Assembly: GCA_001767195.1 (NCBI GenBank) | Contig: MEKU01000020.1 | Coordinates: forward strand, 28,948 to 74,804 | Direction of reading: 5' to 3' | Length of the DNA: 45,857 nucleotides | From: Acidobacteria bacterium RIFCSPLOWO2_02_FULL_67_21 | GTDB lineage: Bacteria; Acidobacteriota; Vicinamibacteria; Vicinamibacterales; UBA2999 | Made by a program: the position numbers and the translations under genes | The notes under the pieces: model-generated | Databases searched by the model: none | What the model saw: the letters and a program-made list of their open reading frames with translations, nothing else | What the model was told of the DNA's origin: nothing | Part shown: in pieces, positions 19,925 through 25,545 of the stretch | Layout: every line of letters begins with the position of its first letter | Position numbering within the stretch: position 1 is the first letter of the stretch

Positions 19925-21754
19925 TTACGACGCGCATTCGCCGTCCATCACCTCTGGCGCAAACACCTGGCTCTCGCCGAGGTCGATGAAGTCGTCTGCG
20001 GTGGTCCGGTCGGGGCTCAGGTCGGCGAGGTCTCTCAGCGCCTCCGTCACCGCGGCCGGGTCGAGCCTTCGGAAGAACGCGCCGAGCGGCTCCTGCTCGC
20101 TGTCGCGCTGCTCGCGGTACAGCGCAACCAGACGGTCGACCGCGTCGGTCAGACGATGGACCGGAATCTTCGAGACGACCTTGCCGAAGTGAGCGCGGTC
20201 ACGTGATACCCCGCCGCCCACGAGAACGAAGTACTGCGGCACGGCTTTCCCCGCCAGCTTGCGCACGCTGCCCTGGAAACCGAGCGCGGCAATGTGGTGC
20301 TGGCCGCAGCCGTTCGGGCACCCGCTGATCTTGATATCGCCGGACGGGACGGCCGCCACGAGCTCGGGATGCGCATCGAGGTGCTCGGTGAGCACGCGGC
20401 CGAGGCCGCGCGACTGGGTCACGGCGAGGCGGCACGTCTCTGCCCCGGGGCAACTCGTCACATCGGCAATCGTGCCCGCCTGTGCTGCGCCGACCCCCGC
20501 GGCCTTCAGCCGCTCGTACAGCGGCAGAACGGCGGCGGCCGGCACCCATCGGAACACGACATTCTGGTCGATCGTGAGCCGGACGGTGCCGTCCGAGTAC
20601 GCCTCGGCAAGGTCGGCAAACACCTGGGCCTGGCCGGCCGTGAAGTCGCCAAGAGGGAGCCGGGCGGTGACATACGCATACCCGGACTGACGCTGGCGGC
20701 GAACGTTGCTCCGTGCCCACGTCGCATATCCGTCCGGCAGCGTCTGCAGCCGCACGGTGCCCGGTACGATCCCCGGCCCTTTGACCGGCGTCTGCGCCAG
20801 CGTGGCGGCGGCCTGCGGGCTGAGTGGCGACGGTTTGGGCCAGTCCGGCGCCTGCTCCACCGGTGGGGCGTCCACCGGGAACGGAAGCCGCGCGCCTCCC
20901 TCGGCACGGAATTCGGTCAGCGCCTCTTCGAATCTGGCGCGGTACCCATCCCAGCCGAGCGATCGGATGAGGAACTTCATCCGGTTCCGCTGCATGTGCT
21001 TGCGGTCGCCGAAACGATGGAACACCCGGACGACCGCCTCGGCGACATTGAGCATCTCCTCAGCGGGCAGGAAGTCGTACAGGAGCGCGCCCGTGTTCAC
21101 GAGGATTGCCGTGCCGCCGCCGACCGTCACGCGGAACCCGCGCCGGCCGCCGACAATGCGTGCCTGCCACCCGATGTCGTGGATCGCCGCCACCGCATGG
21201 TCCTCGGGGCAGCCCTCGAAGGCGATCTTGAACTTGCGCGGGAGCGAGGCCGACAGCGGATGCCGGAGGAAGTAGCGCGTCATCGCCTCTGCGTACGGGG
21301 TCACGTCGAAGATCTCGTCCTCGGCGACTCCCGCATAGGGGCAGGCCGTGATATTCCGCACGGAGTTGCCGCACGCCTCGCGCGTGGTCAAGCCGGTGTC
21401 GGCGAGCGCCCGCATGGCGGCCTCGACGTCAGGGAGCGGCACGAAATGAAGCTGGACGTTCTGCCGGGTGGTGACATGCCCGAAGCCGCGCGAGTAGCTC
21501 GTCGAGACGCCGGCGACGGCGCGCAGCTGCGCGGACGTCAGGATTCCCTGCGGCACCTTGATCCGCAGCATGTGAACCGCCTCGGGCTGCCGCTGGCCGT
21601 AGGTGCCGCGCACGAGGCGGAACTTCCGCCAGTCTTCCGCCGAAATCTCGCCGCGCTCGTATTTGCCGAGCACATCGACGAACTCGTCGATGTCGTGTTC
21701 TTCGGCAAACGACAGGCGGCCGCGGCCGACGGTGGTTTGATCAAGGACGCCCAT
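19925..21754 (-). CDS. Siroheme/[4Fe-4S] sulfite or nitrite reductase (ferredoxin-type)
   Basis: This 609-residue reductase has two repeated ferredoxin-like NIR/SIR halves. The siroheme-cluster cysteines are C435 and C441 (TSCPGAETC) and C479 and C483 (SGCPNGC), the classic Cx5C...Cx3C set. Upstream motifs RGTYGQRQPEAVHMLRIKVPQG and GFGHVTTRQNVQLHF are conserved. Such enzymes reduce sulfite to sulfide (or nitrite to ammonia) with six electrons from ferredoxin. The upstream Cys-rich leader and the siroheme-synthase partner favour assimilatory sulfite reduction. It starts at ATG 21754, 47 bp after the siroheme-synthase stop, the gap being palindromic repeat. Confidence 0.88.
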   Translation of the reverse strand: MGVLDQTTVGRGRLSFAEEHDIDEFVDVLGKYERGEISAEDWRKFRLVRGTYGQRQPEAVHMLRIKVPQGILTSAQLRAVAGVSTSYSRGFGHVTTRQNVQLHFVPLPDVEAAMRALADTGLTTREACGNSVRNITACPYAGVAEDEIFDVTPYAEAMTRYFLRHPLSASLPRKFKIAFEGCPEDHAVAAIHDIGWQARIVGGRRGFRVTVGGGTAILVNTGALLYDFLPAEEMLNVAEAVVRVFHRFGDRKHMQRNRMKFLIRSLGWDGYRARFEEALTEFRAEGGARLPFPVDAPPVEQAPDWPKPSPLSPQAAATLAQTPVKGPGIVPGTVRLQTLPDGYATWARSNVRRQRQSGYAYVTARLPLGDFTAGQAQVFADLAEAYSDGTVRLTIDQNVVFRWVPAAAVLPLYERLKAAGVGAAQAGTIADVTSCPGAETCRLAVTQSRGLGRVLTEHLDAHPELVAAVPSGDIKISGCPNGCGQHHIAALGFQGSVRKLAGKAVPQYFVLVGGGVSRDRAHFGKVVSKIPVHRLTDAVDRLVALYREQRDSEQEPLGAFFRRLDPAAVTEALRDLADLSPDRTTADDFIDLGESQVFAPEVMDGECAS

Positions 21755-21767
21755 ACTTCACCTCTCC

Positions 21768-21886
21768 AAGAATGGGGTCGGCCTGAAAATGGGGTCGGGA
21801 GTCATTCTTCGAGAGCAGCACCGTCTCCCTCCGTGCCCGTCTTCGAAGAACGACTCCCGACCCCATTCTTGACGACCCCATTTTTC
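21768..21886. repeat. AATGGGGTCG palindromic REP-like element
   Basis: AATGGGGTCGGGAGTC followed by WTTCTTCGA at 21788-21812 and its reverse complement at 21843-21867 match at 24 of 25 positions around a 30-bp centre. An extra AATGGGGTCG unit lies outside each arm (21770-21779; 21870-21879 region). A further single unit (AAATGGGGTCGGTGGTACGTG, minus strand) is at about 19906-19926. The design resembles REP/BIME sequences. The left arm lies in the gap; the rest encodes the siroheme-synthase C-terminus. Confidence 0.75.
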
Positions 21887-23169
21887 AGCGCTGCCTGAAT
21901 CCTGACGACCTCGCCAATCACGAGCACGCCGGCGGCCCCGGCCGGCGGCGCCGCGCCGCCCATCTCATCGAGCCTGCCGATCCATGTCCACTCGCGCGGC
22001 GTTGACGCGTCGCAGATGATGGCCGCCGGCGTGTCAGAACGCCATCCGTGAGCCATGAGCTGATCCGCCAGCCGGCTGCGCGCATCCAGGCCCATCATCA
22101 TCACCACCGAAAGGGCGTTCGGCTGAACCGATTCGAGCGCACGGTTCACCGACTCGACCGTATGTCCCGCCAGCACGAGGAACCCCGAGGCGACGCCCCG
22201 ATGCGTGAGCGGGATGCCGGCCAGCTCCGGCGCCGCCACCGCGGTCGTCACGCCCGGCACCACTTCGAACGGGACCCCGGCTTTCGCGAGCGCCAGCGCC
22301 TCCTCGCCCCCGCGGCCGAAGACGAACGGATCGCCCCCCTTGAGCCGTACCACGTGCTTGCCGCGGCGCGCCGCCCGGATCATCAGGCGATGAATCGTCT
22401 CCTGCGGCACGCTGTCACGGCGCGCGCGCTTGCCGACACAGAAGCACTGCGCGCGGCTGCGCGCCCGCAGCGCGGCGGCATCGACCAGCGCGTCGTAGAG
22501 GACGAGGTCCGCGTCCTCGATCAACCGCAGCGCGCGTCTGGTCCAGAGTTCCGGGTCTCCCGGACCAGCCCCGACCAACGACACAACACCCACGCGGTTG
22601 GGAGTTGGGAGTTGGGAGCTGGGAGTTAGGTAGATCCTGTTCAGGATCTCGAGCAGCTGCGGGCGCCGCTGTTCCATCGGCACCTGCTGCTCCTTCCAGG
22701 TGCGCCGGGCTGCATCCGCCGCGGTCAGCCATTCGTCGAGGTCCGCGGGGAGCCATGCCTCCAGCGCCTCGCGAAGCAGGCCGGCGAGCGCGGGCGCGCG
22801 GCCATCGGTCGAGATCGCGACCGTGACACCGTGGCGGCGCACAACGCCGCCGAGGTACGCCGTCGCATGCTGCGGATCGTCGACGGCGTTGACGAAGATG
22901 CGCCGCTCGTCCGCGGCGGCGCGTGCCCGGGCGTTGATCTCAGGCGTCGCCGCGGCCACCACCCACCACGCACCGTCGAGGTCGCGCTCCTCAAAGGGGC
23001 GGCGCAGGATCGTGACCGGGCGCTCCTCGATCGTCGGCACGACGTCCGGCGCGACCACGGTCACATCGGCGCCGGCAGCGATGAGGGCGTCGAGCTTGGC
23101 GGCGGCCACAGGACCACCGCCCACCACGACGACGCGCCGCGAGGCGAGACTCAAAAAGGCTGGAAACAT
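21802..23169 (-). CDS. cysG: Siroheme synthase: precorrin-2 dehydrogenase/ferrochelatase fused to uroporphyrinogen-III methyltransferase
   Basis: This 455-residue bifunctional protein supplies siroheme to the downstream reductase. Residues 1-175 are the SirC/CysG-N NAD-binding dehydrogenase (RRVVVVGGGPVAAAKLDALIAAGADVTVVAP; AVDDPQHATAYLGGVV). Residues about 194-428 are the SAM-dependent SUMT/CobA domain (VVSLVGAGPGDPELWT; YDALVD; VRLKGGDPFVFGRGGEE; VPGVTTA). The linker, residues 181-192 (LTPSSQLPTPNR), is encoded by a GGGAGTT heptad repeat. The last 27 residues are encoded by the REP-like element. Start ATG 23169 is five bases past the attenuator U tract. Confidence 0.92.
   Translation of the reverse strand: MFPAFLSLASRRVVVVGGGPVAAAKLDALIAAGADVTVVAPDVVPTIEERPVTILRRPFEERDLDGAWWVVAAATPEINARARAAADERRIFVNAVDDPQHATAYLGGVVRRHGVTVAISTDGRAPALAGLLREALEAWLPADLDEWLTAADAARRTWKEQQVPMEQRRPQLLEILNRIYLTPSSQLPTPNRVGVVSLVGAGPGDPELWTRRALRLIEDADLVLYDALVDAAALRARSRAQCFCVGKRARRDSVPQETIHRLMIRAARRGKHVVRLKGGDPFVFGRGGEEALALAKAGVPFEVVPGVTTAVAAPELAGIPLTHRGVASGFLVLAGHTVESVNRALESVQPNALSVVMMMGLDARSRLADQLMAHGWRSDTPAAIICDASTPREWTWIGRLDEMGGAAPPAGAAGVLVIGEVVRIQAALKNGVVKNGVGSRSSKTGTEGDGAALEE
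22596..22630. repeat. Heptad repeat (GGGAGTT unit) inside the siroheme-synthase gene
   Basis: GGTTGGGAGTTGGGAGTTGG continues as GAGCTGGGAGTT: four to five copies of TTGGGAG, the same unit found in the intergenic elements at 3661 and 5074. It is read in frame as the interdomain linker. Confidence 0.8.
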
Positions 23170-23175
23170 CGCTCA

Positions 23176-23204
23176 AAAACAAAACCCGGGACGGGGGTCC
23201 CGGG
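23176..23204 (-). terminator. Attenuator terminator upstream of siroheme synthase
   Basis: Minus strand: CCCGGGA (23204-23198), loop CCCCCG, TCCCGGG (23191-23185), then TTTTGTTTTTG. The U tract ends about five bases before the cysG ATG. It lies downstream of the Cys-rich leader, so it would cut the siroheme/sulfite-reductase transcript unless the 5' arm is captured by the leader segment GGTCCCGG. Confidence 0.85.
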
Positions 23205-23283
23205 CTTTCGATCTGCTCGTGTTGTCGGGCCGTCTTACGCGGGACCCGCACGGCGGACCGAGAGCGCCGGGACCGAAGTCCCC
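23196..23283 (-). promoter_or_regulatory. Attenuator with mutually exclusive hairpins
   Basis: Segments in transcript order: (1) GGGGAC at 23283-23278, directly after the Cys codons; (2) GGTCCCGG at 23274-23267, which closes a UUCG-loop hairpin with segment 1 (GGGAC-TTCG-GTCCC); (3) CCGGGACC at 23203-23196, the 5' arm of the terminator, perfectly complementary to segment 2 over 8 nt; (4) the terminator 3' arm. A ribosome stalled on Cys codons would cover segment 1, free segment 2 to pair with 3, and let polymerase read on. Confidence 0.75.
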
Positions 23284-23318
23284 GTACAACAACAGGCGCA
23301 CGCACAGCCGCACCGCAT
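23235..23318 (-). CDS. Cysteine-rich leader peptide of the siroheme/sulfite-reductase operon
   Basis: The 27-codon frame starts MRCGCACACCCTGTS and ends RRAGPA before TAA 23237-23235. Cys occupies positions 3, 5, 7, 9, 10 and 11 (TGC, TGT, TGC, TGT, TGT, TGT), an extreme density in a GC-rich genome. It lies between thrC and cysG, just before a UUCG hairpin, an antiterminator segment and an intrinsic terminator. Known attenuation leaders are rich in the amino acid made by the operon, and Cys is the end product of sulfite reduction. Two GTG codons directly precede the ATG and could be the true start of a leaderless message. It is probably not a functional protein. Confidence 0.8.
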   Translation of the reverse strand: MRCGCACACCCTGTSVPALSVRRAGPA

Positions 23319-23331
23319 CACCACGTGGGGA

Positions 23332-23361
23332 ATTTTACAGGTAGAGGGGGCAAGGGGGCAA
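23332..23361 (-). promoter_or_regulatory. Candidate promoter of the Cys leader transcript
   Basis: Minus strand: TTGCCC (23361-23356), an 18-bp spacer, TAAAAT (23337-23332). Initiation 6-8 bp on would fall at or beside GTG 23324, so the leader ORF could be leaderless. The -35 match is weak and lies in repeat sequence. Confidence 0.45.
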
Positions 23362-23386
23362 GGGCCTAACCCCTGTCCCCTACCCC
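23341..23386. repeat. Inverted reiterated repeat (GGGGGCAA unit) between thrC and the Cys leader
   Basis: GGGGGCAAGGGGGCAAGGGCC faces CCCCTGTCCCCTACCCC, giving an imperfect palindrome that overlaps the last thrC codons. Same design as other gap repeats, with an 8-bp unit. Confidence 0.55.
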
Positions 23387-24616
23387 GATCGCCGCCTCCC
23401 CGAAGACCCGCTCGAAATCGGCCAGGCTGCGTCCGATGCGCGTCGGCCGCGCGACGCGGTCGGACATCACCTCTGCCGTCTTGTACCCGTTGCCGGTAAT
23501 GCACACGACGACAGACTGGTCGGGCTTGATGACGCCGCGCTTGATCAGCGTTCGTGTGACCGCGAGCGTCGTGCCGCCCGCGGGCTCCGTGAAGATGCCC
23601 TCGGTTCTGGCCAGCAGCTGGATCGCGTCGAGAATCTCCTCGTCGCTCGCCATCGCCCCCGCGCCTCCGGTCTCGGTGACCACCCTCACGACCTGGAACC
23701 CGTCGGCCGGATTGCCGATGGCCAGCGACTTCGCGATTGTGTGGGGCTTCACCGGCTCGGGGAACTCGAGACCCGCCTCGAGCGCGCGGATGACCGGCGC
23801 CGACCCTTCCGGCTGCGCCGCGTGAATTCGCGGAAGCGCGCCGCTCACCAGCCCGACTTCGCGCAGCTCACGGAAGCCTTTGTAGATGCGCGGCAGCAGC
23901 GTGCCTCCGGCGACAGGCGAGACGACATGATCCGGGAAGCGCCAGCCGAGCTGCTCCGCAATCTCGAACCCCATCGTCTTGGCGCCTTCGGCGTAGTACG
24001 CGCGGAGGTTGATGTTGGCAAAGCCCCACCCGTACCGATCCACAATCTGCGTGCACAGCCGGTTGACGTCGTCGTAGTTCCCTTCGACGGCCACAACCTG
24101 CGGACCGTAGATGGCGGCGCCGAGGATCTTGTTGGGCTCGAGATCGTGGGGAATGAACACGTAGCACGAGAGGCCGAGACGTGCGGCGTGCGCCGAGACG
24201 CTGCCGGCCAGATTGCCCGTCGACGCGCACCCGAACACCTGAAACCCGAGCTCCACGGCGCGCGTGGCGGCAATCGAGACGACCCGATCCTTGTACGAGA
24301 ACGTCGGATGATTGACCGAATCATCTTTGAGGTACAGCTCGTCGACGCCCAGCTCGCGCGCCAGGCGTGTGGCGCGCACGAGCGGCGTGAAGCCCGAGCT
24401 GAAGCCGGTCCGCGGCTCCTTGACGGGCAGCAGCTCCAGATACCGCCAGAGCGAAGGCGGCCGCGCCTCGATGACCGCGCGCGTCAGCACACCGCGGATC
24501 GCGGCGTAATCGTAGGAGACCTCGAGCGGCCCCAGACACTCGGCACATACCCACGAGGCTTCGGCCGGATACGTCGCCCCACAGAGATGGCACGTCAGAC
24601 CGGCGACGTACTTCAT
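23366..24616 (-). CDS. thrC: Threonine synthase
   Basis: This 416-residue PLP enzyme converts O-phosphohomoserine to threonine. An N-terminal zinc ribbon has four Cys (C9, C12, C24, C27: CHLC...CAEC). The PLP lysine is K109 in NHPTFSYKDRVVS. The phosphate-binding loop is in GCASTGNLAGSVSAHAA. The C-terminus has VVCITGNGYKTAEV. ATG 24616 overlaps the thrB stop (ATGA), so translation is coupled. A much longer open frame upstream is only the shadow of thrB. The final residues (GVGDRG) come from the adjoining repeat. Confidence 0.95.
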   Translation of the reverse strand: MKYVAGLTCHLCGATYPAEASWVCAECLGPLEVSYDYAAIRGVLTRAVIEARPPSLWRYLELLPVKEPRTGFSSGFTPLVRATRLARELGVDELYLKDDSVNHPTFSYKDRVVSIAATRAVELGFQVFGCASTGNLAGSVSAHAARLGLSCYVFIPHDLEPNKILGAAIYGPQVVAVEGNYDDVNRLCTQIVDRYGWGFANINLRAYYAEGAKTMGFEIAEQLGWRFPDHVVSPVAGGTLLPRIYKGFRELREVGLVSGALPRIHAAQPEGSAPVIRALEAGLEFPEPVKPHTIAKSLAIGNPADGFQVVRVVTETGGAGAMASDEEILDAIQLLARTEGIFTEPAGGTTLAVTRTLIKRGVIKPDQSVVVCITGNGYKTAEVMSDRVARPTRIGRSLADFERVFGEAAIGVGDRG

Positions 24617-25545
24617 ACCGTTCTCCCATGGCCGGCGAAGGCCTCCTTCGCCGCATGCGCCGGCTGGTGCACGCGGAGCGTCCGGACAGTTGCCGGACAT
24701 CCGGCCCTCTGATAGGTCGCCCCGACCACCTGCTCCAGCCGATCGAAATCCCGTCGAGCCAGGATCGCCGTCGACGGCCCGGCGCCCGACAGAAACGCGC
24801 CGAGGATCTCGGGATCGTCCAGCGCCAGAACCGCGGCAAGCTGCGGCACCAGCGCCGCCCGGGCGGGCTGGTGCCAGCGGTCCTGCGCGGCCTCGCGCAG
24901 CCGGCCGTACTCGCCGCTCTGCAGCGCGTGCACGAGCGCCAGCACGCGCTGGAGGTTGAATACGGCATCGGCCCGCGGAATGACGTCCGACAGCGCCGCG
25001 CGCGCTTTCGAAGTCGACAGGCCGGCGGCCGGCGTCGCCACGATCAGCCGCAGCTCGTCGGGCCAGTCCCAGCGCAGCGCCTCCGGCTCCTGCCCCTGGC
25101 GCTCGATAACCGAGGTCAGCCCGCCCAGCAGCGCCGCCGCGGCGTTGTCCGCGTGCCCTTCGAGCGACGCGGCAATCGCGAGCAGCACGCCGTCGGGCAG
25201 CGGCCGGGTCACGCGCTCGAACACTCTGAGACCGGCCACCACAGCCGCCGCGCTGCTCCCGAGCCCCGCCGCCATCGGAATGTCGCTCTCGACGGTCACC
25301 GTCACCGACGGCACCTTGAGGCCCGTCCATCTGGCCGCGGCCTCAAACGCCCGCTCGACGGCGTTCCGGCCACGAACCGGAGGCGAGCTCTCAGATACCG
25401 ATAGCGCCGTTCCCCCATCCGCTCGCACGTCCACGATGCGGACGCGCAGATAGAGCTGCACCGCCACAGCGAGCGTGTCGAACCCGCCTCCAAGATTGGC
25501 GACGGAGGCGGGAACACTGATGTCTGAAATGCTCTTAAATGACAC
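24613..25545 (-). CDS. thrB: Homoserine kinase
   Basis: This 310-residue GHMP-family kinase phosphorylates homoserine with ATP to give O-phosphohomoserine. The ATP loop PMAAGLGSSAAA (residues 90-101) is intact. The N-terminal motif VPASVANLGGGFDTLAVAV and the C-terminal FLSGAGPSTAIL are also family-typical. It lies 21 bp after hom and overlaps thrC by 4 bp, forming the threonine operon hom-thrB-thrC. Confidence 0.95.
   Translation of the reverse strand: MSFKSISDISVPASVANLGGGFDTLAVAVQLYLRVRIVDVRADGGTALSVSESSPPVRGRNAVERAFEAAARWTGLKVPSVTVTVESDIPMAAGLGSSAAAVVAGLRVFERVTRPLPDGVLLAIAASLEGHADNAAAALLGGLTSVIERQGQEPEALRWDWPDELRLIVATPAAGLSTSKARAALSDVIPRADAVFNLQRVLALVHALQSGEYGRLREAAQDRWHQPARAALVPQLAAVLALDDPEILGAFLSGAGPSTAILARRDFDRLEQVVGATYQRAGCPATVRTLRVHQPAHAAKEAFAGHGRTV

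Follow-up and report, generated by a model that had tools for sequence, protein, structure and literature searches.

The 200-nt gap between a threonine-synthase-like gene (thrC) and a cysG-like siroheme synthase gene, on the minus strand of the 45,857-nt stretch of DNA from Acidobacteria bacterium RIFCSPLOWO2_02_FULL_67_21 analyzed here (hereafter, the window), raises the question of how the cysG-sir operon that follows it is controlled. The gap holds, in this order, a promoter-like site, a Cys-rich open reading frame (ORF), a hairpin and a terminator. This leader very probably acts as a ribosome-mediated transcription attenuator, responding to cysteinyl-tRNA and regulating cysG-sir as one member of a cysteine regulon. 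The elements of the locus, all on the minus strand, are the following.

23366-25330, minus strand: threonine-synthase-like gene (thrC) with a PALP domain, the upstream neighbour of the gap
23332-23361, minus strand: sigma-70-type promoter-like site, with -35 TTGCCC (23361-23356), an 18-nt spacer and -10 TAAAAT (23337-23332)
23235-23324, minus strand: putative leader-peptide ORF of 27-29 codons, start GTG 23324 (probable) or ATG 23318, stop TAA 23237-23235
23286-23312, minus strand: Cys-codon control region, TGC GGC TGT GCG TGC GCC TGT TGT TGT (C3, C5, C7 and C9-C11, counted from the ATG)
23278-23283, minus strand: segment 1 (GGGGAC), 5' arm of the 1:2 hairpin, expected to be covered when the ribosome stalls at the last Cys codons
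23256-23274, minus strand: segment 2, GGUCCCGGCGCUCUCGGUC, alternative pairing partner of segments 1 and 3; within the ORF, at codons SVPALSV
23196-23213, minus strand: segment 3, GAUCGAAAGCCCGGGACC, shared by the antiterminator (as its 3' arm) and the terminator (as its 5' arm)
23181-23192, minus strand: segment 4, GUCCCGGGUUUU, 3' arm of the terminator
23175-23184, minus strand: U tract of the intrinsic terminator, UUUUGUUUUU, where premature 3' ends would be expected
21802-23169, minus strand: cysG-like siroheme synthase, the first controlled gene (NAD_binding_7 and TP_methylase; PF00590 E 8e-46, PF13241 E 1e-24)
19925-21754, minus strand: assimilatory sulfite reductase (sir), the second controlled gene (NIR_SIR domains; PF01077 E 8e-54, PF03460 E 2e-42)

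The thrC-cysG leader

Read from ATG 23318 to TAA 23235, the leader ORF encodes MRCGCACACCCTGTSVPALSVRRAGPA, with Cys at codons 3, 5, 7, 9, 10 and 11. The six Cys codons that a first-pass annotation of this DNA had placed at positions 3-11 of a short minus-strand ORF are thus present as read, with GTG 23324 a likelier start than ATG 23318 because it lies 7 nt from the -10 element, as in relatives. A simple promoter and start scan of the related leaders described below placed the first in-frame start, mostly GTG, 7-10 nt after the -10 element in 35 of the 53 leaders with a detectable promoter, and made no promoter or start call in 34 further leaders. This -10-to-start spacing suggests that translation of the leader ORF is leaderless or nearly so. 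Downstream, the GC-rich terminator ends in a U tract separated by five bases (GAGCG) from the cysG ATG at 23169, just as first described. The linker between the two domains of cysG (22600-22635 in the window) carries a short repeat of GGGAGTT type, with near-identical copies dispersed elsewhere in the genome.

One promoter-like site was found in the region, against 0.0 expected in shuffles, together with four terminator-like matches, two of them being the thrC-cysG hairpin, against 0.4 expected. Across both strands of the window there is a single ORF of 14-54 codons in which 12 codons include 5 or more Cys, and its place is just 5' of a terminator whose perfect stem measures 8 bp; 20 Markov-1 windows yielded neither such a poly-Cys ORF nor such a terminator. 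No curated Rfam riboswitch or leader family matched the window leader at or above its gathering score, and riboswitch explanations were rejected because of this absence. A subthreshold match to rnk_pseudo, the Pseudomonas rnk leader (window 23173-23275; 27.3 bits versus a cut-off of 55), is probably due to chance, through the hairpins.

Alternative pairings of the leader RNA

Immediately after the Cys run, as the first-pass annotation had noted, GGGGAC-UUCG-GUCCC can be read in the sequence, and a GGGAC-UUCG-GUCCC hairpin forms at 23282-23269. The terminator stem occupies 23208-23181. Between these two structures, the 8-nt complementarity initially proposed is indeed perfect, pairing GGUCCCGG (23274-23267) with CCGGGACC (23203-23196), but its extent had been underestimated: the antiterminator joins 23274-23256 with 23213-23196 and is about twice as long, at approximately 17 bp with one bulge and one mismatch. 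This 2:3 antiterminator is present in the minimum-free-energy fold of the whole leader and is computed to be incompatible with both the 1:2 hairpin and the terminator. The stop codon of the ORF lies about 18 nt 3' of segment 2, which is therefore expected to be translated. Between the ORF stop and the terminator, positions 23225-23217 of the window (ACAACACGA) show good conservation, and they complement part of the Cys-codon run or of the 5' end.

Leaders in related genomes

For comparison, 80 sulfite-reductase loci were fetched from a named genome collection and the 280 bases before cysG were read. The closest loci are mostly titled Acidobacteria, one being Luteitalea, and many of the 80 present a poly-Cys ORF and a terminator before cysG. 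Some relatives have no leader there, with cysG abutting thrC or none being visible in the 280 bases read; the two genes adjoin directly, with no gap, in L041, L042, L043, L080 and L036. Poly-Cys leaders that also contain Met and Thr codons were observed before thrB in three of these loci (L042:1098-1270, L043:1400-1560 and L080:2040-2240), and in the first two of them Pfam identifies thrB as a GHMP kinase. Given a leader before thrB and a gapless thrC-cysG junction, cysteine may govern the threonine genes. Comparable terminators stand directly before cysG with no visible Cys-rich ORF at L055:3380-3482 and L068:2080-2177, and are possibly degenerate leaders. At L167 (G004:C5) and L049, a leader directly precedes a gene for the methylase half of CysG and the first half lies upstream beside thrC, so that cysG appears to be split.

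A covariance model was built from nine leaders; downstream genes were not used by the model and were identified independently. In the genome of the window it detected a second leader, on another contig, before cysD-cysN-cysH (E 2e-20, versus 3e-30 for the query leader); its other matches there were the opposite strand of both leaders and one place at E 2.8 only. At E <= 0.01 the model matched 29 of the family's 43 genomes; within the order, which comprises Vicinamibacterales-like Acidobacteriota, 63 of the 162 genomes held copies at E <= 1e-3. The genes following confident matches are almost all related to sulfur: cysD(N,H), cysG-sir, and TauE/SafE (PF01925) and PF03601 transporters. The original proposal that the operon serves synthesis of the sensed amino acid is hence borne out, by cysG-sir here and by cysDNH and sulfur-type transporters elsewhere. 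Several weak matches (L228, L230, L231, L239 and L243-L247) were rejected as chance, as they lack Cys codons and a sulfur context, and most of them have E > 1e-4. A phylum sample of 396 genomes gave no convincing match outside the order, which reflects the reach of the model and leaves other versions possible; the two candidates outside the order, L251 and L252, were set aside as chance, one having no Cys-rich ORF and the other only weak ones.

Leaders of similar layout and unrelated sequence were also detected in a second phylum. A locus titled Gemmatimonadetes (L109) presents a Cys-rich ORF and a terminator before cysG, and in 8 of 14 sulfite-reductase loci from genomes of its order a short ORF with 3 or more Cys in 10 codons is followed, within 110 nt of its stop, by a terminator-like hairpin. 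At L262, which is the same place as L299, the leader precedes an operon with sulfite reductase and, by eye, a cysteine-synthase-like protein. GCGGCCGG recurs in the ORF region of four leaders from this order and CCGGCCGC in their terminator arm, and these four outperform shuffles in pairing (p <= 0.007); pairing in the remaining leaders of the order is individually not significant versus shuffles. Poly-Cys ORFs near sulfite reductase were noted at L299, L300, L304-L307, L309 and L312, most with a clear terminator, and the hairpin at L309 has no clear U tract. The predicted leaders form a multi-operon regulon, and similar predicted leaders reach a Gemmatimonadetes lineage.

Conservation and co-variation

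The number of Cys codons among leaders ranges from 3 to 8 in 12 codons and their spacing is also variable, the last three control codons in relatives being almost exclusively TGT or TGC. Most leaders have the terminator 76-92 nt beyond the last Cys codon, and a median of 29 nt separates it from the stop codon, which lies 3' of segment 2; across leaders, the strong stem and the U-rich tract behind it are kept. In an alignment-free comparison (n=88), cognate segments 2 and 3 pair with a mean of -31.3 kcal/mol, versus -25.8 kcal/mol when segments are swapped between leaders. Against dinucleotide shuffles the 2:3 energy has a mean z of -2.5, with p <= 0.05 individually in 68% of the 88 leaders. 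When 85 leaders were aligned, 72.8% of cells were canonical in the 2:3 register, compared to 24-57% when it was slid, and 93.6% in the terminator.

Two-sided changes in 2:3 affect 76 cells of this alignment, and columns 71/172/203 (segments 2/3/4) read T-A-T in 39 leaders and C-G-C in 20, these being counts of sequences and not of independent events. Both states occur inside families f1, f5 and f8. The comparative check initially suggested, conserved Cys codons and compensatory changes in segments 2 and 3 of homologous gaps, is therefore passed across tens of genomes. Free energy does not set the 1:2 hairpin apart from shuffles (mean z -0.2 across leaders); by stem length, 61% of leaders have a perfect 1:2 stem of 5 bp or more versus 26% of shuffles, in many different sequences, with stems likewise counted as sequences. 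The parts of the putative attenuator, their conservation, mutual exclusivity and co-variation, and the sulfur-gene context are all features of the sequences themselves.

A model of cysteine-dependent attenuation

In the proposed mechanism, the transcript would start a few bases before the leader ORF and the ribosome would load almost at its 5' end. Under scarcity of Cys-tRNA, the ribosome would stall on the Cys codons and cover segment 1, the 2:3 antiterminator would form in place of the terminator, and the polymerase would enter cysG-sir. With ample Cys-tRNA, the ribosome would travel across segment 2 as far as the stop codon, with the 1:2 hairpin re-forming behind it; segment 3 would pair with segment 4 and transcription would stop at the U tract. 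The leaderless start, the stalling, termination in vivo and the cysteine signal are the steps that we infer.

Using a static equilibrium folding model with a simple ribosome footprint, the terminator of the window leader had a probability of 0.0 with the A site at any Cys codon after the first (2-6), and of at least 0.94 once the ribosome was two codons past the last Cys. Equilibrium folding reproduced this switch in few leaders, the window's among them; in most other leaders it gave no switch, and the terminator was favoured despite the stalled ribosome (median P 1.00), so that kinetic, co-transcriptional trapping of 2:3 would be needed there. In transcripts cut before segment 4, as in co-transcriptional folding, the share of leaders whose segment 3 was mostly paired to segment 2 was 98% when the ribosome sat on the last Cys codon and 17% when it had passed segment 2. 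Without a ribosome, 2:3 pairing was obtained in 58% of leaders, and termination hence seems to need translation in many of them.

The same arrangement could in principle operate at the level of translation, as in mycobacteria, with the poly-Cys ORF governing translation of cysG through coupling or occlusion and the hairpin not acting as a transcription terminator. The mycobacterial poly-Cys leaderless small ORFs (sORFs) are credited with translational action in later papers that cite them, and in several loci (L046, L064 and L073) the U tract abuts the start codon and no clear Shine-Dalgarno sequence is found. The conserved strong stem and U-rich tract speak against this reading, which we consider very unlikely. 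Moreover, the distance from hairpin to first gene varies from under 20 nt to over 100 nt, and occlusion of the ribosome site cannot therefore be general; the whole terminator also lies between the ORF stop and the gene, its hairpin a median of 29 nt from the stop, which precludes coupling by overlap.

It is a shade less plausible that the nascent poly-Cys peptide responds to something other than tRNA, such as a thiophilic metal or thiol redox state. Metal binding by consecutive Cys residues is conceivable, and some leaders have Met between their Cys codons (CMCSCCCC), but the regulon comprises sulfur assimilation and sulfur-type transporters rather than metal handling. The wide variation in Cys count and spacing fits codon reading and not a binding motif, and the distance from the antiterminator to the last Cys codons is fairly fixed. 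Being 3' of thrC on the same strand, the terminator could also end thrC read-through transcripts; even so, a chance Cys-rich frame before an ordinary thrC terminator is hardly credible in view of what tens of genomes conserve (Cys codons, spacing, pairing and downstream function), the second copy before cysD on another contig, and the chance test on the window. Cysteinyl-tRNA-dependent transcription attenuation is thus the reading retained here.

Comparison with known systems

In the literature searched, which included few subscription papers, no report was found of Cys-codon leaders in Acidobacteriota or Gemmatimonadota; any novelty is provisional because subscription papers lay mostly outside that search. 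A broad survey of attenuators lists almost no predicted Acidobacteriota attenuator with an assigned function (PMC2965389). The leader described here provides a concrete, testable candidate regulator of sulfate assimilation for this phylum and marks likely members of its sulfur regulon, such as the TauE/SafE and PF03601 transporters. It also suggests that many operons read cysteine, an amino acid rarely reported for attenuators, through a full terminator/antiterminator switch.

The predicted leader shares with E. coli trpL and hisL its control codons, 1:2 hairpin, 2:3 antiterminator and 3:4 terminator with a U tract, and differs from classical attenuators in that the amino acid is cysteine. It combines clustered Cys codons, an intrinsic terminator, an antiterminator computed to be exclusive with it and an operon for the sensed amino acid. 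In trpL, the ribosome parks next to segment 2; here, segment 2 would be translated, with the stop codon about 18 nt beyond it, and the ribosome would cross segment 2 instead of parking beside it. The designation as a classic four-segment attenuator has comparative support, save that segment 2 is inside the ORF.

Poly-Cys leaderless sORFs upstream of mycobacterial cysteine operons were reportedly described by Canestrari et al. in 2020. The present leader resembles them in being a short, probably leaderless ORF with a Cys run before sulfur or cysteine operons, for which induction by cysteine shortage would be expected. The poly-Cys run and sulfur-operon context match, and a leaderless start is suggested here by the 7-10 nt gap between the -10 element and the start codon. 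The likeness is one of layout. The mycobacterial sORFs have no conserved terminator; the Acidobacteriota leader has an intrinsic terminator and a co-varying antiterminator, and in the window this terminator is strong and conserved, which departs from the mycobacterial pattern of translational control with no terminator. Candidate Cys-codon leader peptides of mycobacteria and Actinobacteria had been listed earlier, with no conserved terminator hairpin found (Seliverstov et al. 2005, PMC1262725), and later work attributes translation attenuation to the mycobacterial poly-Cys leaderless sORFs before cysteine operons (PMC13236596; also cited in PMC9094748).

Another parallel is uORFC-8-2, located before cysS in Rhodobacterales, which is likewise a predicted Cys-codon ribosome-mediated attenuator with an intrinsic-terminator stem (RNA Biol 2021, PMC8632094). 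That element has two tandem Cys codons, usually at positions 14-15, and is found exclusively before cysteinyl-tRNA synthetase in Alphaproteobacteria. The leaders reported here differ in having 3-8 Cys codons, in preceding sulfate-assimilation genes and in belonging to Acidobacteriota and a Gemmatimonadetes order; that of the window precedes cysG-sir, with Cys at codons 3-11.

On balance, we lean slightly towards Cys-codon attenuation being a principal control of sulfate assimilation in Acidobacteriota (Vicinamibacteria) and Gemmatimonadota, acting on several operons through leaderless peptides, independent of or parallel to the terminator-less mycobacterial version, and in some genomes moved before thrB to place threonine genes under cysteine control. 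The proposed mechanism is of an already known kind. What is provisionally new is the combination of a poly-Cys run, a probable leaderless start, a translated segment 2, a terminator, multi-operon reach and similar leaders in a second phylum.
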